Part shown: piece by piece, positions 1,216-12,351 of the stretch
Layout of the letters: each line of letters begins with the position of its first letter
How positions within the stretch are numbered: position 1 is the stretch's first letter
Origin: Bacillaceae bacterium
Lineage (GTDB): Bacteria > Bacillota > Bacilli > Bacillales > Amphibacillaceae
NCBI GenBank assembly: GCA_030152985.1
Contig: JASLIE010000276.1
Location: forward strand, 1 to 12,481
Length of the DNA stretch: 12,481 nucleotides
Direction of reading: 5' to 3'
Notes under the pieces: model-generated
Told to the model about the DNA's origin: nothing
Database searches by the model: none
The model's input: only the letters and a program-made list of their open reading frames with translations
Position numbers and translations under genes: made by a program

Positions 1216-1226
1216 TGTCTTAGACA
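1216..1226. promoter_or_regulatory. Putative upstream activating site for the sigma-54 regulator (unit 1)
   Basis: TGTCT-T-AGACA is a perfect palindrome with 5-bp arms. Its centre lies about 123 bp upstream of the expected start of sigma-54 promoter 1, a normal distance for an enhancer site. A related half-site, CGTCTA, begins at 1237, 21 bp (two helical turns) further on. The same half-site forms the palindrome upstream of sigma-54 promoter 2. That the locus regulator binds here is inferred from the shared motif, its position and the gene context. Confidence 0.55.
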
Positions 1227-1293
1227 TGTGTATAATCGTCTATACAGATAGCTGGATATATTTAGTAAAAACGCTTAATATCATGCAAAAGAA

Positions 1294-1307
1294 TGTAAAC
1301 GCTATCA
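1294..1307 (+). promoter_or_regulatory. Catabolite-responsive element (CcpA cre box)
   Basis: TGTAAACGCTATCA matches the Bacillus cre consensus TGWAANCGNTNWCA at every position. It lies between the proposed enhancer site and the -24 element, ending 9 bp before the sigma-54 core. CcpA bound here could obstruct the DNA loop or polymerase binding, giving glucose repression of unit 1. No comparable box was seen at promoter 2. Confidence 0.75.
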
Positions 1308-1316
1308 TTTAAGAAC

Positions 1317-1334
1317 TTGGCATGAAAATTGCAT
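1317..1334 (+). promoter_or_regulatory. Sigma-54 (-24/-12) promoter of unit 1
   Basis: TTGGCATGAAAATTGCAT carries the -24 GG (1319-1320) and -12 GC (1331-1332) exactly 10 bp apart, the invariant sigma-54 spacing. It differs from the TTGGCAC-N5-TTGC consensus at one core position (T for C). Transcription should begin near 1344, leaving a leader of about 25 nt before the first gene. Use depends on an enhancer-binding ATPase, and one is encoded two genes downstream. Confidence 0.88.
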
Positions 1335-1368
1335 AATATATAAGTAAGTTAAAAAAGGAGGAATAAAA

Positions 1369-2148
1369 ATGAATCAGTATATTCATGTAAAAAAAGAAAA
1401 GCAACTTGCACTAATTGAAGTTGATCATGCACCCGCAAATGCTTTATCAAGTCAGGTAATTAAAGAGTTAAGAGAAGTCGTAGAATATTTAGATAAGGAT
1501 TCCGAAATACATGCGGTGATAATTTCAGGTGCTGGAAAATTTTTTATCGCAGGAGCAGATATTAAAGAATTTATTCCAGCATTAGGAAGTAAAGAAAAAG
1601 CGATTGAATTAGCAGAGCAAGGCCAACTCCTTTGTGATGAGATTGAAGGAATGAAAAAACCGGTTATTGCTGCAATAAACGGTGCTTGCTTAGGTGGTGG
1701 TTTAGAAGTAGCCTTAGCTTGCCATATCAGACTCGCTAGTCAAGAGGCTATCTTAGGCTTACCAGAACTAAATCTAGGTTTAATTCCAGCATTTGGTGGC
1801 ACACAACGTTTAACGGATTTATTAGGAGAGTCACTTGCCTTTGAACTTATCTTAACAAGTAAACAGTTATCAGCCAAAGAGGCTAAAAACTTAAAATTAG
1901 TTAGAGAGGTCTATGAAAGAGAAGATCTCTTGCAGCAAGCAAAGCAGCTAGCAAGGAGCTTAACAGAAAAGAATAGCTATCAAGCAATAAAGCGTGCGAC
2001 ACAAGCAATTGTATCAAGTAAAAACCCCAAGCTTGATGGTTATGAGATAGAACGCGAATTATTTTCTGAATTATTTGAATCAAAAGACGCAAGCGAAGGA
2101 ATTCACGCATTTATTGAAAAAAGAAAAGCAGAATTTAAACATGAATAG
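1369..2148 (+). CDS. Enoyl-CoA hydratase (likely methacrylyl-CoA hydratase)
   Basis: A 259-residue crotonase-superfamily protein of the standard length for a single-domain enoyl-CoA hydratase. The oxyanion-hole segments are present (AGADIKEF, 61-68, and NGACLGGGLE, 104-113). So are both catalytic glutamates of true hydratases, Glu113 (GGGLEVAL) and Glu133 (LPELNLGLIP), followed by FGGTQRL. It should therefore add water across a 2-enoyl-CoA double bond. In this operon the likely substrate is methacrylyl-CoA from valine or isobutyrate, giving 3-hydroxyisobutyryl-CoA; this is inferred from neighbours, since the fold alone does not separate it from a crotonyl-CoA hydratase. AAGGAGG precedes the ATG, and it is the first gene after sigma-54 promoter 1. 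The hydrolase follows after 11 nt. Confidence 0.88.
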   Translation: MNQYIHVKKEKQLALIEVDHAPANALSSQVIKELREVVEYLDKDSEIHAVIISGAGKFFIAGADIKEFIPALGSKEKAIELAEQGQLLCDEIEGMKKPVIAAINGACLGGGLEVALACHIRLASQEAILGLPELNLGLIPAFGGTQRLTDLLGESLAFELILTSKQLSAKEAKNLKLVREVYEREDLLQQAKQLARSLTEKNSYQAIKRATQAIVSSKNPKLDGYEIERELFSELFESKDASEGIHAFIEKRKAEFKHE

Positions 2149-2159
2149 GAGTGGTTAAA

Positions 2160-3191
2160 ATGAGTATTGTGATTAAAGAACATGAAAATGGTTTAGCTGA
2201 ATTAATTTTAAATCGTCCAGAGGTTTTAAACTCACTTAATACAGACATGGTAGAGAAGTTAAAAGAAGCCTTATCTGCTTGGGAGAATGATCCAAAAATT
2301 AAAGTTGTTTTAATGCATAGTGATGGAAATCGTGCTTTTTGTGCAGGTGGAGATATAAAAATGTTATACGAGGCCCGTATGTCGGAGGATAACAAAGAAA
2401 TTGCACGTGACTTTTTTGAAAAAGAGTATGAACTTGATTTATTAATAGCTGAATATAACAAACCAATTGTTGCTTTAATGCACGGAATAATTATGGGAGG
2501 CGGGGTTGGACTTGCTCAGGGCGCATCTCACCGTATAGTAACAGAAAAAACAAAGTGGGCTATGCCTGAAATGAATATTGGTTTTTTTCCCGATGTCGGA
2601 GCAGCTTATTTTTTAAATAAGGCACCTTCGGAAATTGGTAAATACTTAGCTTTAAGTTCAGAAACAATTAGTGGGAAAGATGCGATTTATATAGGTGCAG
2701 CTGATTATTATCTTGAAAGTAGCCAGATTGAAGATTTATTTGAACAATTAAAACAAGTGAATTTACATTTAGATACTGAATATAAATTAGGTGAACTTAT
2801 TAATTTATTTAATGTAAATAAAATAAAAAGTGAAATTGAAAATAAACACGAATTTATTGATCATCACTTTAAGTATGAGCGAATCGAGGAAATCCTTGTT
2901 TCGCTTGAGTCAAGTTCTGATAGACTCGCTCATGAAACAAAGAAAGTCTTACTGAGTAAGTCACCTATCTCACTTAAGGTGACACTTGAACAGCTAATGA
3001 GAGGAAAAGGACGTTCACTTAAAGAGTGTCTAGAGACTGATAAAGTGATAGCAAATCACTTTTTATATCATGCTGACTTTTATGAAGGCATTCGTTCTGT
3101 TTTAATAGATAAAGATTTAAACCCAAACTACGCGTATTCAACACTTGAGTCAGTAACAAAAGATAAAGTGGATTCGTTTTTTATAAACTAA
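2160..3191 (+). CDS. 3-hydroxyisobutyryl-CoA hydrolase, copy 1
   Basis: A crotonase-superfamily thioesterase of 343 residues, matching the ~340-380-residue HIBCH family rather than ~260-residue hydratases. It hydrolyses 3-hydroxyisobutyryl-CoA to 3-hydroxyisobutyrate and CoA, which in valine breakdown removes the route back to toxic methacrylyl-CoA. Visible signatures are AFCAGGDIK (59-67), the oxyanion segment MGGGVGLAQG (112-121) and the hallmark MPEMNIGFFPDVGAAYFLN with Glu137 and Asp145, the family's catalytic acids. The C-terminal HIBCH extension ends DFYEGIRSVLIDKD...PNYAY. I chose ATG 2160 over the in-frame GTG at 2151 because AGGAG (2147-2151) then sits 8 nt upstream. It is co-transcribed with the hydratase before it and the regulator after it. 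A paralogue lies at 11308-12351. Confidence 0.93.
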   Translation: MSIVIKEHENGLAELILNRPEVLNSLNTDMVEKLKEALSAWENDPKIKVVLMHSDGNRAFCAGGDIKMLYEARMSEDNKEIARDFFEKEYELDLLIAEYNKPIVALMHGIIMGGGVGLAQGASHRIVTEKTKWAMPEMNIGFFPDVGAAYFLNKAPSEIGKYLALSSETISGKDAIYIGAADYYLESSQIEDLFEQLKQVNLHLDTEYKLGELINLFNVNKIKSEIENKHEFIDHHFKYERIEEILVSLESSSDRLAHETKKVLLSKSPISLKVTLEQLMRGKGRSLKECLETDKVIANHFLYHADFYEGIRSVLIDKDLNPNYAYSTLESVTKDKVDSFFIN

Positions 3192-3209
3192 AGAAAGGAT
3201 CTGATTTCT

Positions 3210-4970
3210 TTGAAGAGAGAAAAGGCGCAAGTAAAGAATTGGATGAAAGAAATCGATGTCATGCTTGCAGAAGATACATTAGTTCGTGATGCGATTCATT
3301 TATTTATGCAAGTTGATTTACATGAATTTCCTGTTGTAAGTGCAGGTAAACTAATTGGTGTTTTTCAAGTGAAAAATTATTTACATGCCTTACAAGGTAA
3401 AAGATTAAATCAAAGCGATAAAGTAATCGAATGGATGACACAGGTCTACACGACTGTTAACTTAGATGAGCGAATGGAATATATTGAGTCAACTCCTACT
3501 TATGTGTTAAATAATCAGTTAGAACTTGTAGGTGTTATTGATCAAGCGAGTCGTTTAGAATATTATCGTTCCTTTAGTCAAAAGAAAGATGAACTTGAAG
3601 AAATCATTAAATGGTATGACTTATCTTTTGATACGGCTTATGAAGGCTTAGCAGTTGTAGATAATCAAGGAATTATCCGTGTGTTCAATGACGCTTATAG
3701 TCGGTATGTAGGAATTAGTAAAGAAGAAGCAATTGGGAAAAAAGCAATAAATGTCATCGAAAATACGCGACTCCCCGTAGTCTTAAAAACAGGAGTTCCA
3801 GAAAGAAGTCAAGCGCACAGTCTATCCGGTCATAACTTAATCGTTCATCGACTGCCGATTTGGCATAATAATGAGGTTGTTGGTGCAGTCGGTATGCTAG
3901 TTTATGAAGGAGTCTCTGAAATTTATGATGTGATTCAGCGGATGGAACAATTAGAAACGAAAAATACACCTGAGAGACCAGCGATTAACTTTAATAACAA
4001 AGAAAGAAAAAAGGTTCGTTTTGAAGATATTTTAGGTGAGAGTGAATGCATGACACGGACTAAAAATATAGCAATCAAAGCGAGTAAAACAAAAGCAACA
4101 GTCTTATTGACTGGTGAAAGCGGCGTAGGAAAGGAGCAATTTGCAAAAGCGATTCATGATATGGGCCTTACCTCTGAAAATAACTTTGTCAGCGTCAATT
4201 GTGCAGCAATTCCTGACAATTTAATTGAGTCCGAACTCTTTGGTTATGAAGATGGTTCTTTTACAGGAGCTCGTCGTGGTGGACATATTGGAAAGTTTGA
4301 ACAAGCAAATAGAGGAACACTTTTTTTAGATGAAATTGGAGAGATGCCCTTAAATATTCAAGTTAAAATCTTGCGTGCTTTACAAGAACGTGAAATTCAA
4401 AGAATAGGTGGTAGAAAAACAATACCTTTAGATATCCGGATTATTGCTGCTACAAATAAAGATTTGAAGGAAGCTGTTAAAAAAGGTGTTTTTCGCGAAG
4501 ACTTATTTTACCGACTTAATGTGATTCCAATTGAAATCCCACCACTCAAAAAGCGCATCACAGATATCCCCTTAATTGTCGCTTATAAAATGAAAGAACT
4601 TGCTGAAAAGTATAAGCAAGAAGAAAAAACAATTGATGAAAAAATCATTCGTTTGTTTTACACCTATGATTGGCCTGGAAATGTCAGGGAACTAATGAAT
4701 GTCCTAGAGCGTTTATTTGTATTAACTGAAAGTCAACATATTAAAGCAGACGAATATAGCTATTATCTATTAGAAGAAAGTGGTTCAAATTTTGAGATTC
4801 AAAACAGTAGTTCATACAAAGCAATTGAAGCTGAACTTATCGAACAAGAAAAGCATGAAATTATTATTGCACTAGAAAAAGCCGATGGGAATAAATCATT
4901 GGCAGCTAAAAACTTAAATATTTCGCGTGCGACACTTTATAATAAATTGAACCGCTATCAAATCCAGTAA
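3210..4970 (+). CDS. Sigma-54-dependent activator with CBS-CBS-PAS-AAA+-Fis HTH domains
   Basis: A 586-residue bacterial enhancer-binding protein. In order it shows: two CBS motifs (about 8-60 and 67-115), a domain pair known in other proteins to bind adenine nucleotides; a PAS domain (about 132-240); a sigma-54 AAA+ domain (about 270-500); and a Fis-type helix-turn-helix (about 547-584, NKSLAAKNLNISRATLYNKL). The AAA+ domain has Walker A GESGVGKE (302-309), the sigma-54 contact loop as GSFTGA (349-354, Ser in place of the usual Ala), Walker B LFLDEIGE (371-378), an arginine-finger region REDLFYRLN (429-437) and WPGNVREL (488-495). There is no phosphorylation receiver domain. The TTG start has AAAGGA about 10 nt upstream, and the next ATG (3243) would cut into the first CBS motif. 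It follows the hydrolase by 18 nt and separates two sigma-54 units, so it probably activates both. The ligand is unknown. Confidence 0.93.
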   Translation: MKREKAQVKNWMKEIDVMLAEDTLVRDAIHLFMQVDLHEFPVVSAGKLIGVFQVKNYLHALQGKRLNQSDKVIEWMTQVYTTVNLDERMEYIESTPTYVLNNQLELVGVIDQASRLEYYRSFSQKKDELEEIIKWYDLSFDTAYEGLAVVDNQGIIRVFNDAYSRYVGISKEEAIGKKAINVIENTRLPVVLKTGVPERSQAHSLSGHNLIVHRLPIWHNNEVVGAVGMLVYEGVSEIYDVIQRMEQLETKNTPERPAINFNNKERKKVRFEDILGESECMTRTKNIAIKASKTKATVLLTGESGVGKEQFAKAIHDMGLTSENNFVSVNCAAIPDNLIESELFGYEDGSFTGARRGGHIGKFEQANRGTLFLDEIGEMPLNIQVKILRALQEREIQRIGGRKTIPLDIRIIAATNKDLKEAVKKGVFREDLFYRLNVIPIEIPPLKKRITDIPLIVAYKMKELAEKYKQEEKTIDEKIIRLFYTYDWPGNVRELMNVLERLFVLTESQHIKADEYSYYLLEESGSNFEIQNSSSYKAIEAELIEQEKHEIIIALEKADGNKSLAAKNLNISRATLYNKLNRYQIQ

Positions 4971-4988
4971 GTGTCTAAACACTTTTTT
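4969..4988 (+). terminator. Probable weak terminator after the regulator gene
   Basis: A 6-bp stem AAGTGT/ACACTT around a CTAA loop runs into six T residues, starting inside the regulator's stop codon. The stem is short, so termination may be partial. The same bases contain a TGTCTA half-site of the proposed enhancer motif, so the stretch may have two uses. Confidence 0.55.
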
Positions 4989-4995
4989 AAGAAGC

Positions 4996-5010
4996 TGTCT
5001 AGGCTAGACA
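4996..5010. promoter_or_regulatory. Putative upstream activating site for the sigma-54 regulator (unit 2)
   Basis: TGTCTAGGCTAGACA is a perfect palindrome with 7-bp arms, too unpaired with a T-run to be a terminator. Its centre is about 85 bp upstream of the expected start at sigma-54 promoter 2. It shares the TGTCT/AGACA arms with the palindrome at 1216-1226, and another TGTCTA lies 24 bp upstream at 4972. A two-fold symmetric site is what a dimeric Fis-type helix-turn-helix would recognise. Binding is inferred. Confidence 0.65.
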
Positions 5011-5060
5011 CTATTTGCTGAAAAATGATTTAAAAGTCCTGGTTTTATAGTAAAAAATAG

Positions 5061-5078
5061 TTGGCACGATACTTGCAT
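5061..5078 (+). promoter_or_regulatory. Sigma-54 (-24/-12) promoter of unit 2
   Basis: TTGGCACGATACTTGCAT is an essentially consensus -24/-12 promoter, with GG at 5063-5064 and GC at 5075-5076, 10 bp apart. Transcription should start near 5088, giving a leader of about 24 nt before the ATG at 5112. It continues TTGCATAATATAAG, very like promoter 1. An in-frame TTG at 5061 would extend the downstream gene through this promoter, which argues against that longer start. Confidence 0.95.
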
Positions 5079-5111
5079 AATATAAGGGTGAAGGATGAAA
5101 GGAGTTTTAAT

Positions 5112-6761
5112 ATGACGATGAGAGCGCATTTATTTCCAACTTTAGAAAAGGAAAGATCAACTTGGAGTCCGGAAGATTTTTCAGAAGAAGAAAGATTAAT
5201 TAAACAAACTGTCAGTCAATTTGTAGAACATAAAGTTATCCCTAATTTAGAAAAACTTGAAGCCTATGATTATGATGTAAGCCGATTCCTCTTTAAAGAA
5301 GCAGGTCAACTTGGCTTACTCGGTGCAGAAGTTCCAATGGCTTATGGCGGTATGGAAATGGGAAAAAAAGTTTCAGGAATCATTGCAGAAGGTTTAGGTT
5401 TTGCGAGTAGTTTCGGTGTTTCTTTTAATATTCATACTGGAGTAGGTATATTGCCTTATGTCTATTTTGGGAGTGAAAAACAAAAGAATAAATATATTCC
5501 TAAACTTGTGAGTGGTGAGTGGATTGGTGCTTATGCGCTGACAGAACCTAACGCAGGATCAGACGCCTTAGCAGCAAGAGCATCAGCTAAGGAAAATAAA
5601 GATGGAAGTTATACTTTGAATGGTGAAAAGCAATGGATCACCAATGGGCATTTAGCAAGTGTCTATGTTGTTTTTGCTAAAACAGAAGAAGGCATGACCT
5701 GTTTTATTGTTGAACGTGATTATCCAGGTGTTTCAGTTGGAGTAGAGGAACAAAAGATGGGGATTCGTGGTTCGTCTACGGCAACCTTAATTTTAGAAGA
5801 TGTAAATGTATTAGAGGAAAATATATTAGGAGAAAAAGGTAAAGGCCATTATATCGCACTTAATATTTTGAATCTTGCCCGTCTTAAACTAGCATTTTCA
5901 AACCTTGGTTCAGCAAAACAAGCATTTGATACTGGTCTAGCCTATGCAAAGGAAAGAGAGCAATTTAAAAAATCCCTCGTCGAATTTCCTTTAATTCAAG
6001 AGAAATTAGCAAACATGGCCATGGCAATTTATAAGGCTGAAACAAGCAGCTACTTTACTGCAAGTCAAGTTGATCAGCAAGCAATCGATGAAAAAAATAT
6101 TTTAAATATTTTACCCGACTATGCAGCAGACTGTGCACTTAATAAGGTAGAGGCATCTGAATGCTTAGATTATGTCGTAGATGAGGCCCTTCAAATTCAC
6201 GGTGGTTATGGTTATATGGAGGAGTATCCAATTGAACGCATGTATCGTGATGCAAGAATTAACCGTATTTTTGAAGGAACGAATGAAATAAATCGGTTGA
6301 CGGTGACACGGAGTTTTTTAAAGCTAATTCAAAAAAATCGTGAAATAATTTCAAGTGATTTATCCTTTGAAAATAAAGCTTATCTGCAGACTAAACAGAT
6401 TTTAAATCTTGTTTTAAAAGCCTTATCAAGTGAAGAAAAAGTTAAATTAACTCAGATAGAAGATGAGCAAGAATTAATGAGACTTATAGCAGATTTGATT
6501 AAAGAAATCTATTTATTTCAAGCGGTTTTAGTTCGAGCAGAAGAAAGTAATAAGGAAATCATTAAAGAATTGACAGATGTAATCAGTGAAGAGAGTTTAA
6601 TAAAAATTCAAAGTCTTGCTGAATCCATTTGTTTAAGATTAGTCCATGAAGCGACGCCTTATTTAAATGAGATTAATCAAACAAGAATTAAAACGGACTT
6701 AATTGAAAATAAGCGAAGAATAGCAGATCACTTTATAAACAAAGCTACTTATCATATTTAA
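5112..6761 (+). CDS. Acyl-CoA dehydrogenase (VLCAD/YusJ-like architecture), likely for isobutyryl-CoA
   Basis: An FAD-dependent acyl-CoA dehydrogenase that forms the 2,3-double bond of an acyl-CoA and passes electrons to electron-transfer flavoprotein (not encoded here). The catalytic core spans about 20-405. It shows the flavin-contact segment LTEPNAGSDA (143-152), QWITNG (174-179), IHGGYGYMEEYPIERMYRDARI (around 362-383) and the catalytic Glu388 in FEGTNEINRL. A further helical C-terminal region of roughly 140 residues makes the protein 549 residues, longer than the ~380 of ordinary short-chain dehydrogenases and closer to VLCAD or Bacillus YusJ/FadE. I chose ATG 5112 because AAAGGAG lies 7 nt upstream and longer starts run into the sigma-54 promoter. 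Leading the MmsB-MmsA operon suggests isobutyryl-CoA as substrate, but the architecture leaves straight-chain acyl-CoA open. Confidence 0.9.
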   Translation: MTMRAHLFPTLEKERSTWSPEDFSEEERLIKQTVSQFVEHKVIPNLEKLEAYDYDVSRFLFKEAGQLGLLGAEVPMAYGGMEMGKKVSGIIAEGLGFASSFGVSFNIHTGVGILPYVYFGSEKQKNKYIPKLVSGEWIGAYALTEPNAGSDALAARASAKENKDGSYTLNGEKQWITNGHLASVYVVFAKTEEGMTCFIVERDYPGVSVGVEEQKMGIRGSSTATLILEDVNVLEENILGEKGKGHYIALNILNLARLKLAFSNLGSAKQAFDTGLAYAKEREQFKKSLVEFPLIQEKLANMAMAIYKAETSSYFTASQVDQQAIDEKNILNILPDYAADCALNKVEASECLDYVVDEALQIHGGYGYMEEYPIERMYRDARINRIFEGTNEINRLTVTRSFLKLIQKNREIISSDLSFENKAYLQTKQILNLVLKALSSEEKVKLTQIEDEQELMRLIADLIKEIYLFQAVLVRAEESNKEIIKELTDVISEESLIKIQSLAESICLRLVHEATPYLNEINQTRIKTDLIENKRRIADHFINKATYHI

Positions 6762-6774
6762 AGGAGGGAATAAG

Positions 6775-7647
6775 ATGAAGCGACTTGGCATCATTGGCTT
6801 AGGGAACATGGGTTTACCTATGGCAAAGAACTTAGTTGAAGACTATATTGTTTATGGTTCAGATATAAATGAAAACGCTTTAAAAACATTTGAATCTTTT
6901 GGTGGAAAGCCTGTTCACTCGAATCAAGAATTGATTGAACAATGCGACATTATTTTAACCAGTCTACCAGCTGAATCTATTGTAGAATCAATCTATTTAG
7001 GAAAGGATGGGTTATTCACTTACACGTCAGATGTTACTTTTATTGATACAAGCACAGTTTCACCTGAATTAAATAAAAAGTTAAGTCATCTAGCAAAGAA
7101 ATCTAAACTTAAATTTATCGCCGCACCAGTGAGTGGTGGCGTTATTGGGGCAGAAAACCGCACACTTACATTTATGGTTGGGGGTGAGCGAAAGATATTC
7201 GAAGAAGTGAGTAGCTTATTTAATTTGTTAGGTGAAAATGTGTTTCATGTTGGCGAGGAAATTGATAGTGGGACAACCGTTAAACTGATTAATAATTTAT
7301 TAATTGGTTTTTATACAGCAGGTGTGGCAGAAGCGCTTCACATAGCTCGAAAACAAAAGATTGATCTTGATTTGTTGTTTGATATGTTGAATGTTAGCTA
7401 TGGTCAAAGTCGGATTTATGATCGTAACTACAATAGCCTTATCAAGCATGGAGATTATGAGCCAGGTTTTGCCTTAAGTTTATTGCTGAAGGATATGAAT
7501 TTTGCAATTGATTTAGCAAGAGAGCTAGAACTTGATTTGCCTATGAGTAGAGAGCTTTTAAGTTTGTATGAAAGAGCAGATCAAGAAGGCTATGGTCCTA
7601 AGGATATGGCTGTTTTATTCGAACGTGTCAAAGAAAAATCAAATTAA
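6775..7647 (+). CDS. mmsB: 3-hydroxyisobutyrate dehydrogenase
   Basis: A 290-residue beta-hydroxyacid dehydrogenase that oxidises 3-hydroxyisobutyrate to methylmalonate semialdehyde with NAD(P)+. The N-terminus is a Rossmann fold with GLGNMG (8-13). Asp30 at the end of the second strand (YGSDIN) suggests NAD+ preference. Family signatures follow: DTSTVSP (91-97), the substrate-binding APVSGGVIGAENRTLTFMVG-type segment (117-136), and the catalytic Lys170 in TVKLINNLL with Asn174 nearby. Length and motifs match MmsB/HIBADH, although glyoxylate/succinic semialdehyde reductases share the fold. Genes for the previous step (hydrolase) and the next step (MmsA) in the same locus make the assignment strong. 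AAGGAGGG precedes the ATG, and it lies 13 nt after the dehydrogenase gene. Confidence 0.92.
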   Translation: MKRLGIIGLGNMGLPMAKNLVEDYIVYGSDINENALKTFESFGGKPVHSNQELIEQCDIILTSLPAESIVESIYLGKDGLFTYTSDVTFIDTSTVSPELNKKLSHLAKKSKLKFIAAPVSGGVIGAENRTLTFMVGGERKIFEEVSSLFNLLGENVFHVGEEIDSGTTVKLINNLLIGFYTAGVAEALHIARKQKIDLDLLFDMLNVSYGQSRIYDRNYNSLIKHGDYEPGFALSLLLKDMNFAIDLARELELDLPMSRELLSLYERADQEGYGPKDMAVLFERVKEKSN

Positions 7648-7665
7648 AATAGGAGAGTGGATAAA

Positions 7666-9123
7666 ATGAGTCAAGTTAAATTAATGAAGAACTATATAGG
7701 TGATAGTTGGGTTGATGCAAAAACAGACCTTATTAATGATATACCGAATCCTGCAACAGGTGAAATTATTGCACGCGTTCCTATATCAGGTAAAGAAGAT
7801 GTCGATTTAGCAGTTGCGGCAGCTAAAGAAGCTTTCCCTGATTGGGCAAGTATTTCAGTTCCAAATCGTGCGCGTTATTTGTTTAAATACCTTCAGTTAC
7901 TTGAAGAAAATCGTGAAGAACTTGCTCAAATTCTAACAAAAGAAAATGGTAAGTCGATTAATGACTCACGTGGTGAAGTGCAGCGTGGCATAGAAGTGGT
8001 TGAATTAGCAACATCTGCTCCTAACTTAATGATGGGAGATGCTTTACCAAATATTGCAACAGGGATTGATGGTTCACTTTGGCGTTATCCACTCGGTGTT
8101 GTTGGAGGAATTACTCCTTTTAACTTCCCGATGATGGTTCCTTTATGGATGTTTCCACTTGCCATAGCAGTTGGAAATACATTTGTTTTAAAAGTTTCTG
8201 AGCAAACACCTGTCTTAGCTGAAAAATTAGTTGATTTATTTTATGCATCTGGCTTTCCAAAAGGAGTCTTAAACCTTGTGCATGGCGGGAAGGATGTAGT
8301 TAATACGATGCTAGAACATCCAGATATTGAAGCCTTGTCCTTTGTTGGCTCAGAGCCAGTTGCGCGCCATGTATATCAAACAGGAACAGCTCACGGAAAA
8401 AGAGTTCAAGCATTAGCAGGCGCAAAGAACCACGCAATTGTCATGCCGGATTGTCATTTAGATAAAACAATTGAAGGTGTCATTGGAGCAGCATTTGGTA
8501 GTAGTGGTGAAAGATGTATGGCTTGTTCAGTTGTTGCAGTTGTTGATGAGATTGCGGATGAATTTATAGAAAAGCTTGTTACAGAAACAAGAAAATTAAC
8601 AGTAGGTGACGGATCAGATGAATCAAACTTTGTCGGCCCTTTAATCCGTGATACAAATAAAGAAAGGGTCTTAGGCTATATTGATAGTGGCGTAGAACAA
8701 GGAGCGAAATTATTAGTTGATGGACGCGAAATTAAGGAAGAAACAGCAGATGGTTATTATGTTGGTGCTACAATTTTTGATCAAGTGAATCCAGAGATGA
8801 AAATTTGGCAAGATGAGATCTTTGCACCTGTTTTAAGTATAGTTAGAGTAAAAGATTTAGATGAAGGCATTAAGTTAACCAATCAATCACCTTTTGCAAA
8901 TGGGGCTGTCATTTATACATCAAGTGGTCAAGCTGCTCAAACATTTAGAAATGAAATTGACGCAGGTATGATTGGTGTAAATGTTAACGTTCCAGCACCA
9001 ATGGCCTTCTTTTCTTTTGCAGGTAATAAGGCTTCATTTTATGGTGATCTAGGTACAAATGGAAAAGATGGCGTTCAATTCTATACGCGTAAAAAAATTG
9101 TCACAGAGCGTTGGTTTAATTAA
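7666..9123 (+). CDS. mmsA: Methylmalonate-semialdehyde dehydrogenase (CoA-acylating)
   Basis: A 485-residue aldehyde dehydrogenase that converts methylmalonate semialdehyde, NAD+ and CoA to propionyl-CoA, CO2 and NADH, the last step specific to valine breakdown. Visible landmarks are [15 protein letters not shown] (about 150-164), FVGSEPVA, and the MMSDH-type segment [13 protein letters not shown] in place of the ELGGK motif that carries the general-base Glu of hydrolytic aldehyde dehydrogenases. The catalytic Cys284 lies in [10 protein letters not shown]. The loss of the general base is typical of this CoA-dependent subfamily, which also includes Bacillus IolA. I chose ATG 7666 over the in-frame GTG at 7657, because the GTG overlaps the AGGAGAG ribosome binding site that serves the ATG. 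It follows mmsB by 18 nt and ends unit 2. Confidence 0.94.
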
Positions 9124-9125
9124 AT

Positions 9126-9152
9126 AAAACGAGGGAGTAGCTCCTTCGTTTT
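9126..9152 (+). terminator. Hairpin between mmsA and the acyl-CoA synthetase gene
   Basis: A 12-bp stem with one G-T pair (AAAACGAGGGAG/CTCCTTCGTTTT) closes a TAG loop 2 nt after the mmsA stop. The only T-run is the four T's of the stem itself, so termination may be incomplete. It could end unit 2 or lower expression of the gene 34 nt downstream. I see no convincing separate promoter in that 34-nt gap. Confidence 0.6.
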
Positions 9153-9186
9153 AATCACATATGTACATTATATAGGGGGCATAAAC

Positions 9187-10746
9187 ATGAAAAAAGATTT
9201 ATTGATTGCACCGGAAGCGTACAATATGACACAGGAAATAGAGAAATATGCAAAAGACCCTACTAAAAAAGCACTCGTGTGGGAAAATGAAGATCAAAAA
9301 AGAGTCGAAGTCACTTATGATGAACTAATTAGAGGAGCTAACAAAATTGGGAACGCTTTCATTGATGCGGGTTTAAAAAAAGGTGATGCTATTTTAGTTA
9401 TGATTCCAAGACTCATTGATGCTTATCAAGTTTATATAGCTGCATTAAAAATTGGTTTAGTGATTACACCTAGTTCAGATATGTTACGTGCATCGGACTT
9501 AAAGTATCGGATTAATCACGGAGATGTAAAGGCCTGTATTGTTTATTATCCAAATGTTGATCATTTTAATGAGCTTGAGGGCATTGATCATCTCATTAAC
9601 TTTATTGTTGGAGGAGATCAACCCGGTTGGTTAAGTTTGGATAAAATAAAAGAAAAGCAATCCGAAGACTTAGAAACAGCTCAAACACATTCAAATGATA
9701 TTGCTTTTTTATCCTATACATCAGGTACAACAGGAAATCCTAAAGGTGTCATTCATACACATGGATGGGCTTATGCGCATTTAAAGCTAGCAGGTCAAAC
9801 TTGGCTCAATATTAAAGAGGGAGATAAGGTGTGGGCAACAGCTGGACCAGGATGGCAAAAGTGGGTTTGGAGTCCATTTTTAGCAGTGCTGGGACTCGGA
9901 GCAACGGGTTTTGTTTATCATGGCCCATTTAAACCAGAAGTTTATTTAGATATCTTAGAAAAAGAAAAAATTAATGTGCTTTGCTGTACACCGACAGAAT
10001 ATCGCTTAATGTCAATTGTTGATGAGATTGGTAAATATGATTTAAGTCATCTAAAAAGTGCAGTTTCAGCTGGGGAACCTTTAAATAGAGAAGTGATTGA
10101 TATCTTTTTAAATAACTTTAATATTCCAGTTCGAGATGGTTACGGGCAAACAGAAAACACCTTATTAATTGGTGTGACACCTGAAATGGATTTAAGACCA
10201 GGATCTATGGGAAGGCCGATGTTAGATGGAACGGTTGAAATTATTGATGAAGAGGGTCAGCCAACAGAAATAGGTATTGTAGGTGATATTGCTATTCATA
10301 AAGATACACCTGCCCTATTCAGAGAGTATTATAAAGAACCAGAAAGAACAGCAGAGCAGTATCGTGGATCTTATTACGTCACGGGGGACCGGGCAGCAAA
10401 AGATGCTGATGGGTATTATTGGTTTGAGGGAAGGGCAGATGATATCATCGTATCCTCAGGCTATACAATCGGACCATTCGAAGTAGAAGATGCTCTTTTA
10501 AAGCATCCGTCAGTACAAGAATGTGCAGTTGTAGCAAGCCCAGACGCAATTAGAGGAAATGTTGTCAAAGCCTTTATCATTCTAAGAAAGGATTCACCTG
10601 AAGCAACTGATCAATTAGTTAAAGAAATACAAGATCATGTTAAACAGATTACTGCACCATATAAGTATCCGAGAATTATCGAATTTGTAAATGAACTCCC
10701 AAAAACAATCTCCGGAAAAATAAGACGGGTTGAATTAAGGGGATAA
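9187..10746 (+). CDS. Acyl-CoA synthetase (AMP-forming), acetate/medium- or branched-chain type
   Basis: A 519-residue member of the ANL adenylate-forming family that activates a carboxylic acid with ATP and CoA through an acyl-AMP intermediate. Seen in order: the phosphate-binding loop SYTSGTTGNPKGV (176-188), AGPGWQKWVWSP (219-230), VSAGEPLN (293-300), the adenine-binding DGYGQTEN (317-324), TGDRA (399-403), the hinge GRADDIIVSSGYTIGPFEVE (415-434) and the C-terminal catalytic Lys511 in SGKIRR. That lysine is also the usual acetylation site controlling such enzymes. It is shorter than classical ~650-residue acetyl-CoA synthetase and resembles MACS, Bacillus YtcI and staphylococcal MbcS proteins. 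Its place after MmsA suggests isobutyrate or another branched short acid as substrate; acetate, propionate or butyrate are also possible. Ribosome binding site AGGGGG, 7 nt before ATG. Confidence 0.88.
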   Translation: MKKDLLIAPEAYNMTQEIEKYAKDPTKKALVWENEDQKRVEVTYDELIRGANKIGNAFIDAGLKKGDAILVMIPRLIDAYQVYIAALKIGLVITPSSDMLRASDLKYRINHGDVKACIVYYPNVDHFNELEGIDHLINFIVGGDQPGWLSLDKIKEKQSEDLETAQTHSNDIAFLSYTSGTTGNPKGVIHTHGWAYAHLKLAGQTWLNIKEGDKVWATAGPGWQKWVWSPFLAVLGLGATGFVYHGPFKPEVYLDILEKEKINVLCCTPTEYRLMSIVDEIGKYDLSHLKSAVSAGEPLNREVIDIFLNNFNIPVRDGYGQTENTLLIGVTPEMDLRPGSMGRPMLDGTVEIIDEEGQPTEIGIVGDIAIHKDTPALFREYYKEPERTAEQYRGSYYVTGDRAAKDADGYYWFEGRADDIIVSSGYTIGPFEVEDALLKHPSVQECAVVASPDAIRGNVVKAFIILRKDSPEATDQLVKEIQDHVKQITAPYKYPRIIEFVNELPKTISGKIRRVELRG

Positions 10747-11263: not shown

Positions 11264-11307
11264 TTAATTGTAAGGGCTTACCCAAAACTAAAAAAGGTGT
11301 GATAGTG

Positions 11308-12351
11308 ATGACTGAAGTCTTATTTAATGAAAAATTTAATGGAGTTGGTGTAATTACTCTCAATCGTCCTCAAGTCTTAAACTCCTTAAATTTAAATATG
11401 GTACAAATGATTCATGAACAACTCGTTAAATGGGAGGAAAATGACGATATTAAATTAATCGTCTTAAAAGGAAAAGAAGCAAGGGCTTTTTGTGCAGGTG
11501 GTGATATAAAATCGCTCTATGAGGCAAAAGATGATGAAAAAGTCTTAAAATATGCACAGGATTTCTTTAAAGAAGAGTATCAACTTGATGAATACATCGC
11601 TCAATATAAAAAGCCAATTATAGCCTATCTAGAAGGAATCGTTATGGGAGGTGGTGTTGGCCTTGCGATTCACAGCGATTTTAGAATTGTGACAGAAAAT
11701 ACACGTTGGGCAATGCCAGAAATGAATTTAGGTTTCTTCCCAGATGTAGGAGCGGGTTACTTTTTAAATCAAGCACCTCATTCTCTTGGAAAATATTTAG
11801 CGCTGACAGGTGAGATGATTAACGGTAGAGAAGCGGTTCATATTAAAGCTGCAGACTATTTATTAACAAGCGAAAATGCAGAAAAATTATTTAATGAACT
11901 TAATCATGTTAAGTTTAAAGATGAGGTAGAGAAGGAAGTAGCCTTGTTAATTGATAAATATAAAACTGAAAATATTCAGTCCTTTAATCTTTTCGAACAT
12001 GAAGATGAAATTAATAGACATTTTTCTCATGAAACAGTTGAAGAAATCATTGAATCTCTTGAAAATGATTCATCAGAATTCAGTAATTCGACACGACATA
12101 CCTTACTCGGAAAATCTCCAGTATCGCTCAAGGTAGCAAATCAACAATTAGCTGTTTGTAAAAACAAGCGACTTGAAGAGGTTTTAACATTGGATTATAT
12201 TCTAGCCTTTAATTTTTTAAGGCACGATGATTTTTATGAAGGAACACGCTCAGTTTTAGTTGATAAAGATCGAACGCCAAATTACGAGTATAAATTACTT
12301 TCTGATGTAAGTGATGAGTTTGTCGATTCATTTTTTTCAATCAAAGAGTAA
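11308..12351 (+). CDS. 3-hydroxyisobutyryl-CoA hydrolase, copy 2
   Basis: A 347-residue HIBCH-type thioesterase of the crotonase superfamily, paralogous to the protein encoded at 2160-3191 and about half identical to it by eye. Shared signatures are LNRPQVLNSLN (18-28), AFCAGGDIK (60-68), MGGGVGLA (113-120), the catalytic-acid segment MPEMNLGFFPDVGAGYFLN (Glu138, Asp146) and the C-terminal DFYEGTRSVLVDKDRTPNYEY. All the residues I looked for are kept, so both copies should be active. I chose ATG 11308 over the in-frame GTG codons at 11299 and 11305, because AAAGGTG (11293-11299) is then 8 nt upstream. It is a single-gene unit: divergent from the DsrE-family gene, followed by a strong terminator, and without a sigma-54 promoter. 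It may provide basal activity or act on a different 3-hydroxyacyl-CoA. Confidence 0.9.
   Translation: MTEVLFNEKFNGVGVITLNRPQVLNSLNLNMVQMIHEQLVKWEENDDIKLIVLKGKEARAFCAGGDIKSLYEAKDDEKVLKYAQDFFKEEYQLDEYIAQYKKPIIAYLEGIVMGGGVGLAIHSDFRIVTENTRWAMPEMNLGFFPDVGAGYFLNQAPHSLGKYLALTGEMINGREAVHIKAADYLLTSENAEKLFNELNHVKFKDEVEKEVALLIDKYKTENIQSFNLFEHEDEINRHFSHETVEEIIESLENDSSEFSNSTRHTLLGKSPVSLKVANQQLAVCKNKRLEEVLTLDYILAFNFLRHDDFYEGTRSVLVDKDRTPNYEYKLLSDVSDEFVDSFFSIKE

Follow-up and report, generated by a model that had tools for sequence, protein, structure and literature searches.

TGT-N10..12-ACA enhancers are described as the sites of Fis-type sigma-54 activators, among them PrdR, NifA and FhlA (PMC6615313, PMC4641369). 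In Bacillus, the bkd operon is activated by BkdR together with sigma-L; the part of its description cited here gives it two PAS/PAC domains and mentions no CBS domain (PMC4428206). MbcS of Staphylococcus aureus is reported to activate isobutyrate and 2-methylbutyrate (PMC10026030). For the lower valine pathway in Bacilli, a search of open-licence papers returned no description of any sigma-54 activator.

We analysed a 12,481-bp stretch of a Bacillaceae contig (hereafter the window), which contains a cluster of predicted valine-degradation genes arranged in two operons, with a regulator encoded between their promoters. Like the described enhancers, the motif found here has inverted TGT and ACA 12 bp apart before a -24/-12 promoter, with the activator gene adjoining, and the predicted valine operator would be a further case of the known TGT-N12-ACA enhancers. 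As far as the cited accounts go, it differs from them in its inner letters (TGTnTA/TAnACA), in a second, inner TGT-N4-ACA, in an additional TGTnTA arm on the outside, matched at 4 or more of 5 letters in 12 of the 26 promoters with a site, that extends the palindrome to up to 26 bp, and in its pathway, lower valine degradation. The regulator's best NCBIfam match, nearly full length, was PrdR, the proline reductase activator (NF041552), but its 470 bits lie far under the 795-bit cut-off, which ruled out that identity, and the neighbouring genes differ. Like BkdR, the regulator would be a sigma-54 activator for branched-chain amino-acid breakdown in Bacilli, whereas the target of BkdR is the bkd operon, taken as the upper steps; the two were compared by description alone (PMC4428206). 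The MbcS of the window exceeds the family cut-off; the S. aureus enzyme feeds fatty-acid synthesis, whereas mbcS here stands in a degradation operon (PMC10026030).

Table 1. Genes, promoters and predicted regulatory elements in the window.
Feature	Position	Strand	Evidence and remarks
palindrome TGTCTTAGACA	1216..1226	.	18-mers across it reach at most -6.7 bits; geometry not conserved; probable auxiliary half-sites
predicted operator (UAS), ech promoter, TGTATAGACGATTATACA	1229..1246	-	16.9 bits, E 0.031; second-best window match
predicted CcpA cre box ATGTAAACGCTATCA	1293..1307	+	full match to consensus; just upstream of ech promoter
ech-hibch-regulator operon promoter, sigma-54-type, TGGCATGAAAATTGCA	1318..1333	+	GG-N10-GC, 1 mismatch to consensus
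ech	1369..2148	+	enoyl-CoA hydratase family; PF00378
hibch	2151..3191	+	3-hydroxyisobutyryl-CoA hydrolase; NF004127, 425 bits vs cut-off 274
sigma-54 activator gene	3210..4970	+	CBS-PAS-AAA+-Fis HTH, GSFTGA loop, helix SRATLYN; Pfam, sequence and tree
predicted operator (UAS), acd promoter, TGTCTAAACACTTTTTTA	4972..4989	+	17.5 bits, E 0.022; best window match
palindrome TGTCTAGGCTAGACA	4996..5010	.	best overlapping 18-mer -6.5 bits; probable auxiliary half-sites
acd-hibadh-mmsdh-mbcS operon promoter, sigma-54-type, TGGCACGATACTTGCA	5062..5077	+	GG-N10-GC, 0 mismatches to consensus
acd	5112..6761	+	acyl-CoA dehydrogenase; Pfam and in-frame tblastn
hibadh	6775..7647	+	3-hydroxyisobutyrate dehydrogenase-like; top NCBIfam model TIGR01692, 201 bits vs cut-off 292 (not reached)
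mmsdh	7657..9123	+	methylmalonate-semialdehyde dehydrogenase; TIGR01722, 624 bits vs cut-off 448.5
mbcS	9187..10746	+	acyl-CoA synthetase; NF047394, 892 bits vs cut-off 850

The acd start was taken as ATG 5112, the listed ORF beginning at a TTG further upstream. No Rfam element was found in the window at gathering scores. The sigma-54 consensus is TGGCAC-N5-TTGCA, or more loosely TGGCAY-N5-TTGCW, with GG and GC 10 bp apart. Both window promoters satisfy it with at most one mismatch to the strict form, and direct reading of the sequence confirmed the GG-N10-GC spacing claimed by the first-pass annotation, together with the common continuation TTGCATAATATA (1329-1340 and 5073-5084) and leaders of about 25 nt before ATG 1369 and ATG 5112, with the start site taken about 12 nt past the -12 GC. 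Among 18 loci, the window counted, 8 have a promoter ahead of ech, and in most relatives a promoter lies between the regulator and acd; ahead of acd in the nearest relative (L001), neither a promoter nor a site was found. The regulator has the features of an enhancer-binding protein of the NtrC/NifA type, namely a Sigma54_activat AAA+ domain (PF00158, 232 bits), a Fis-type HTH (PF02954, 48 bits) and a GAFTGA-type loop, which reads GSFTGA in the window and GAFTGA in L001. A serine at that loop position is noted for LevR (PMC3162934), and GSFTGA is given for DVU2394 (PMC4641369). A sigma-54 gene was present in all 15 regulator-bearing genomes tested.

The operator motif was learned from relatives' promoters, with the window held out. 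The sample comprised 33 promoters, 31 from relatives and 2 from the window; three sigma-54-like sequences with at most one mismatch (L071 7019, L074 13196 and L077 244) were omitted because none faces pathway genes. The promoters labelled acd at L044 8717 and L045 8854 actually face hibadh, and the one labelled ech at L044 10917 actually faces acd. EM on 22 non-redundant non-window promoters, with 9 near-duplicates among the relatives omitted from training only, yielded TGTCTATACAcTTATACA, an 18-bp motif of the form TGTnTA-N6-TAnACA (equivalent to TGT-N12-ACA). The top two matches over the 12.5-kb window were 4972-4989 and 1229-1246, the third scoring 12.7 bits, and the same two ranked on top when the matrix was retrained without L001. 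Only 1 of 500 column-permuted matrices placed both top matches in the two intergenic regions, while 15 of 500 reached 16 somewhere; a score of at least 16.9 occurred somewhere in 3 of 200 simulated windows. The predicted operators precede the -24 elements by 89 bp (ech) and 90 bp (acd). The ech-side operator is an exact TGT-N12-ACA, as found in 25 of the 33 class-A promoters; the acd-side operator retains TGT and the inner TGT-N4-ACA, and its right outer arm is degenerate, with TTA where ACA is expected. Both score lower than most relatives' sites (21.6-26.9 bits). Of the 31 relatives' promoters, 24 carried a site scoring 16.5 bits or more, and the other seven had no good site (two of L044, L068 ech, L069 mbcS and ech, L071 acd and L073 acd). 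None of 26 paralogue-locus promoters reached 16.9 bits. A census of TGT[ACT]TA/TA[AGT]ACA pairs in the 250 bp upstream of the 33 sigma-54 promoters at regulator-linked loci gave a spacer of -2 in 25 pairs and of 6 in 22, every other spacer occurring 1-3 times. These sequence comparisons suggest that the conserved operator is likely TGTnTA-N6-TAnACA, best matched at 1229-1246 and 4972-4989. Both regions had figured in the first-pass annotation only as secondary half-sites, and the CGTCTA at 1237 and TGTCTA at 4972 reported there are indeed present.

The acd-side operator begins two bases past the regulator stop codon, as does TGTCTAAACAGTTATACA in L068, and a weak hairpin followed by a T run overlaps it (AAGTGT-CTAA-ACACTT, -4.1 kcal/mol, z -1.4), which could be a terminator. 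On the strength of this hairpin, 4972-4989 might serve only to terminate the regulator gene, with the acd promoter driven from other half-sites or from a distant ech-side operator. We consider this improbable, as 22 of 200 shuffles fold equally well and the L068 site, at the same place, has TATACA replacing the T run.

The first-pass annotation had instead placed the working sites at two palindromes with TGTCT/AGACA arms. Both are present, as TGTCTTAGACA and TGTCTAGGCTAGACA, but they are not the same site, because their arms stand 1 bp and 5 bp apart. The proposed TGTCTA-N3-TAGACA has its sole exact window match at 4996, and 1216-1226 does not fit it. Binding of the regulator to such DNA at the two palindromes would gain from the position of 4996-5010, an exact palindrome whose location, -66 to -52, falls within that of the acd site in L016-L019 (TGTCTAGTCA(C/G)TTAGACA at -69 to -52), and from an enrichment of extra half-sites in the promoters. 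Outside the core site, exact TGTCTA/TAGACA occurred 11 times in the 33 promoters, where 2.5 were expected and the highest count in 300 simulated sets was 9, with 3 of the 11 from the window and the remaining 8 not exceeding that highest count; looser half-sites numbered 38 (35 without the window) versus 12.1 expected (largest simulated set, 23). Against this reading, the two arm distances cannot belong to one site type, the spacer of 3 at 4996-5010 (6 in conserved pairs) was found once among the 33 promoters, that pair being the window's own, and the best 18-mers over both palindromes fall below -6 bits. We therefore regard it as quite unlikely, and TGTCTA-N3-TAGACA was ruled out as the conserved motif by the spacer census and matrix scores. 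In relatives that keep the regulator and promoters the palindromes are not conserved, the outcome that the annotation itself had named as a refutation. They are probably best read, from their sequence, as auxiliary half-sites. As RNA structures they were rejected, since 4985-5025 and 1208-1256 fold no better than shuffles.

We assessed the co-occurrence of the site with the regulator gene. In a first family (261 genomes), site plus promoter was found in 5 of 5 regulator bearers and 0 of 256 others; the order-level search gave the same genomes as the family-level search. Similarly, in a second family (29 genomes), it was found in 8 of 10 regulator bearers and 0 of 19 others. A pattern scan placed 33 of 47 matches in 18 orthologue-bearing genomes at the locus, versus 24 matches in 22 other genomes. 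Thirty loci were fetched out of the 71 pattern matches; in 7 of the 8 valine loci among them, and in none of the remaining 22, the match was followed within 300 bp by a sigma-54 promoter (at most one mismatch). A broad regulon of exact matches beyond the locus was rejected, with 14 out-of-locus matches in the 18 orthologue genomes against 24 in the 22 others. In the class sample, site plus promoter matched in only 1 of 5 genomes with a near orthologue, and G001 shows the other orientation. G442, G575 and G584 gave neither a site-plus-promoter match nor a pattern match at the locus; among relatives of G575 and G442, no further orthologue appeared at E 1e-142 beyond those already found. The relatives compared are not independent of each other. 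The regulator likely binds the 18-bp motif, because distant bacteria with the regulator gene carry the motif at the same genes. Sites upstream of the regulator gene in G463, G630 and G632, where the search gave no sigma-54 promoter, would suit a different transcription factor binding the motif, the linked activator being unrelated. This is very improbable, given that site plus promoter follows the regulator gene across the 261 and 29 genomes and that motifs of paralogous activators also fall in the TGT-N12-ACA frame, the published form for Fis-type activators (PMC6615313). The annotation's wider proposal, one activator for both pathway halves through TGTCTA-type sites, is supported by the conservation and the co-occurrence with the regulator gene, but the geometry and place that it gave to the motif were wrong.

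Regulators that own a site fall in one clade (100/98) in 16 of 17 cases, and all 17 carry the helix [ST]RATLYN. Outside the clade stands L045, a site owner with a 17.3-bit site and this helix, as do L044 (SRSTLYN) and L043 (SRATLYN; no promoter found); the motif label on the tree was assigned to 16 rows, L045 not included. In paralogues whose helix is HRTT or HRST, the TGT-N12-ACA sites carry different inner letters, so the half-site appears to track the recognition helix. Class C is mixed, and its 11 promoters yielded just 6 sites. The control (paralogue) motif was trained in one run on 21 of 26 control promoters and in another on all 26, the latter with a coarser search of its four shuffled sets, which used every second seed and 3 rather than 6 refinements. 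Jointly, these observations might be read as a readable DNA code, in which one TGT-N12-ACA frame is shared, the helix sets the next letters, switches are kept apart and a 26-bp palindrome provides cooperativity; we hold this tentatively, at slightly less than even confidence. In such a code, helix positions I-x-R-x-T-L-Y-x would set the next three letters after TGT, with [ST]R[AS]T-N specifying TGT-(C/A)TA, HRTT-(Q/K) specifying TGT-AG and HRST-E specifying TGT-CTG/CGG. The helix-to-half-site rule is a lead and not a statistic, because about two changes on the tree underlie it.

Judging from the sequence, the activator encoded at 3210-4970 probably switches on both promoters by binding an operator of the form TGTnTA-N6-TAnACA that precedes each by about 90 bp. 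A dimer of its Fis-type HTH would read each TGT-N12-ACA. As auxiliary half-sites, the TGTCTA/TAGACA pairs at 1216-1226 and 4996-5010 may help to load further dimers, and DNA looping would carry the AAA+ ring to RNA polymerase-sigma-54. An intermediate of the pathway, detected by the CBS-PAS half, is the probable trigger. The regulator gene stands third in the operon driven by the ech promoter, and activation of that promoter would therefore create a feedback on the regulator. The CcpA cre consensus is WTGNAANCGNWNNCW; a match lies at -25 in the window and at -24 in L001 (6048-6062), and a scan of 13 further loci showed none in this position. Through this predicted adjoining cre box, preferred sugars may repress the ech promoter.

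For lower valine degradation in Bacilli, the locus offers a predicted sigma-54 activator operator that can be put to the test, and the paralogue comparison points to a concrete rule linking helix to half-site in Fis-type activators. Motif similarity is reported not always to follow similarity of the DNA-binding domain (PMC4641369), and a case in which the motif follows the helix is therefore testable by helix swaps. If the code holds, paralogous catabolic switches within one cell would be kept separate, and the valine switch would be cooperative through two overlapping frames in one 26-bp palindrome.

We counted TGT[ACT]TA/TA[AGT]ACA pairs in the 250 bp upstream of 33 sigma-54 promoters from 18 loci, window included, with expectations taken from shuffles. 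The half-sites were separated by a spacer of -2 in 25 pairs (0.11 expected) and of 6 in 22 pairs (0.01 expected), and the remaining spacers occurred 1 to 3 times each. TGTCTA-N3-TAGACA, proposed in the first-pass annotation as the conserved motif, did not hold: spacer 3 occurred once in the 33 promoters, in the window itself. The EM motif learned from 22 non-redundant promoters, window excluded, was TGTCTATACAcTTATACA (19.1 bits), and sites of at least 16.5 bits were present at 24 of the 31 relatives' promoters, leaving 7 without. Over both strands and all positions of the window, the best match was 4972-4989 (17.5 bits, E 0.022), 90 bp before the -24 element, followed by 1229-1246 (16.9 bits, E 0.031), 89 bp before the -24 element; the third-ranked match scored 12.7 bits with the same matrix. 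When the nearest relative, the Savagea locus (L001), was left out of training, these two remained on top (16.6 and 16.5 vs 10.9 for the third). Among 500 column-permuted matrices, 15 reached 16 somewhere in the window and 1 had both top matches in the two intergenic regions, and 3 of 200 simulated windows contained any score of at least 16.9.

The palindromes 1216-1226 and 4996-5010 had been described as one shared motif. Both are present at these positions, but their arms are 1 bp and 5 bp apart, respectively, and they are therefore not copies of one site. Their top overlapping 18-mers scored -6.7 and -6.5 bits, and we consider it very unlikely that they are the main sites. Outside the core, exact TGTCTA/TAGACA half-sites numbered 11, with 2.5 expected and at most 9 in any of 300 simulated sets, and loose half-sites 38, with 12.1 expected and at most 23 in any simulated set; the window contributed 3 to each count, the relatives 8 and 35. 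The 4996 palindrome lies at -66 to -52, and the acd site of loci L016-L019 at -69 to -52. From the extra half-sites and this match in position, we read both palindromes as putative auxiliary half-sites. In the Savagea locus (L001 5889-5915), TTTGTCTAAA and TTTAGACAAA arms lie ~180 bp before the ech promoter, the same half-sites at another unusual spacing.

Sequence reading confirmed GG-N10-GC in both sigma-54-type promoters and TTGCATAATATA as common to the two, and the leaders of ~25 nt were also borne out. The idea that one activator switches on both promoters stands, but with the operators corrected to 1229-1246 and 4972-4989. The listed acd ORF starts at an upstream TTG; with the ATG that follows the ribosome site, at 5112, as the start, the promoter 5062-5077 lies outside acd. 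The steps from isobutyryl-CoA to propionyl-CoA are established, and the cluster genes together fit them. S. aureus MbcS is reported to activate isobutyrate and 2-methylbutyrate (PMC10026030).

Genes and promoters of the window
Feature	Position	Remark
Gene end ahead of sdhB	left edge of window	taken as sdhA by place
sdhB	after putative sdhA end, left of ech	
ech promoter	1318-1333	
ech, hibch, sigma-54 activator	1369-4970	
acd promoter	5062-5077	
acd, 3-hydroxyisobutyrate dehydrogenase-like gene, mmsdh, mbcS	5112-10746	
DsrE gene	right of mbcS	opposite strand
Second hibch (3-hydroxyisobutyryl-CoA hydrolase)	11299-12351	just past cluster; above same family cut-off as first hibch

A strong terminator-like hairpin lies directly 3' of sdhB (-16 kcal/mol, z -5.9). 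A second hairpin, with a T run, overlaps 4972-4989; its fold is only modestly better than shuffles, and it is therefore only a possible terminator of the regulator transcript. A full match to the cre consensus was found 25 bp before the ech promoter, at 1293-1307, and a match 24 bp before the Savagea ech promoter, at L001 6048-6062; none of the 13 other loci scanned had one at that place, and one further window match lay inside mbcS. The predicted cre box near both ech promoters suggests carbon catabolite repression of valine breakdown.

The Savagea serpentis regulator orthologue is 60% identical and has nearly the same neighbour genes, with mmsdh not found in the 17.8 kb around it; further orthologues in Bacilli share about 45-51% identity. 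The 33 promoters face acd (16), ech (8), mbcS (6), hibadh (2) and hibch (1), acd lying ~580 bp from the promoter in L071 and L073. In these two loci (L071 10736-11218, L073 10739) a sigma-54 promoter stands directly behind the regulator with no operator within 200 bp, and that of L071 leads first into a small gene resembling, by eye, universal stress protein. In genome G185 (L016 2301-5892), citrate-synthase-like, PrpD-like and PrpB-like genes, named from reading the sequences rather than by family search, precede the regulator. A second rpoN adjoins the methylcitrate-valine locus in 2 of 4 sister genomes (L018 416-1753 in G187; G186:C260:27534-28013), in L018 divergent from the citrate-synthase-like gene. 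Matches in overlapping pieces, as if frameshifted, were seen for ech in G187 (L018 13128-13876) and mmsdh in G631 (L074 6622-8071).

The 18-bp pattern, with palindromes read on both strands counted twice, gave 47 matches in 18 genomes with the orthologue, of which 33 fell no more than 9 kb from the regulator gene. The 22 genomes without a match at the regulator-search cut-offs gave 24, and no match lay at the locus in G442, G575 or G584. Among the 30 loci from these 71 matches, a sigma-54 promoter (at most 1 mismatch) followed within 300 bp downstream at 7 of the 8 valine loci and at none of the remaining 22, the eighth valine locus (L102) being read in the other orientation. Site and promoter 30-60 bp apart were found in 8 of 29 genomes of G463's family, all among the 10 bearers of the clade regulator, and in 0 of the 19 others; in the two missed bearers (G641 and G655) the site lies ~150 bp from the promoter. 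The same search of a 398-genome class sample matched G463 once and none of the near-orthologue genomes G001, G442, G575 and G584; the miss in G001 is explained by the opposite orientation of its site. In that orientation, 5 of 261 genomes of G001's family matched, and these are the same 5 in which the regulator search at E 1e-140 gave a match. Sigma-54 is encoded in 15/15 regulator bearers tested, in G630 as two pieces. TGTCTAAACAACTATACA also occurs upstream of the regulator gene (G463:C11:31404-31421, G630:C34:264470-264487, G632:C8:329327-329344), at a distance from the matched region of ~100 bp (G463, G630) or ~320 bp (G632), with no sigma-54 promoter found at these copies; autoregulation is possible.

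One clade (100/98) takes in 16 of the 17 regulators, window included, with a site scoring at least 16.5 bits at their loci; the exception, L045, falls outside it, and its site is weaker. All 17 carry the recognition helix GI[ST]RATLYN, and the paralogue helices (n=20) read GIHRTTLY or GI[HQ]RST[LF]Y. None of 26 sigma-54-like promoters of paralogue loci had a valine-type site of at least 16.9 bits. Their own EM motif was TGTAG-N8-CTACA (log-likelihood 120 vs 52-62 in four more coarsely searched shuffled sets), present at 9/26 paralogue promoters vs 0/30 promoters of 16 clade loci. TGT-N12-ACA was the commonest TGT/ACA spacing in every helix class, at 25/33 promoters in A ([ST]R[AS]TLYN), 12/15 in B (HRTT) and 6/11 in C (HRST). 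Arms were CTA or ATA in 39/50 of class A, with G at position 5 in 23/24 of class B and at position 6 in 8/12 of class C. In G187, which has regulators of both class A and class B, each lies next to sites of its own type (L018, L021), and the two would therefore be kept apart in one cell. That half-site letters may follow helix class is a lead, resting on few evolutionary changes. Most paralogous-activator loci (L020-L027, L047-L054, L076, L078-L080) lie beside an mmsdh-related aldehyde dehydrogenase, and the TGT-N12-ACA sites at these loci are of their own kinds, TGTAG-N8-CTACA or TGTCTGG-type.

In the accessible parts of published work, fifteen activator groups, PrdR included, have TGT and ACA 10-12 bp apart (PMC6615313), and activator sites have 9, 11 or 12 bp spacing, one with three half-sites (PMC4641369). 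The part available on sigma-54 in B. thuringiensis links BkdR to the degradation of isoleucine and valine and names no activator of the lower valine steps (PMC4428206), and those of PMC12316311, PMC4941409 and PMC11407668 hold nothing closer. Our literature search, with subscription papers mostly outside it, recognised no description, in Bacilli, of a sigma-54 activator for the lower part of the valine pathway; the TGT/ACA enhancer kind is thus known, and its valine-pathway member appears new.

With the promoter sequences, the motif, its place, its co-occurrence with the regulator gene and the helix class as observed, we hold it highly probable that a sigma-54 activator switches the valine pathway through 1229-1246 and 4972-4989. 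An inducer would act on the regulator, which would bind the operators and activate both promoters; activation would feed back on the regulator, and the cre box would mediate repression. In G185, the methylcitrate-cycle-like operon would handle the pathway's propionyl-CoA, tying propionyl-CoA disposal to the valine locus.
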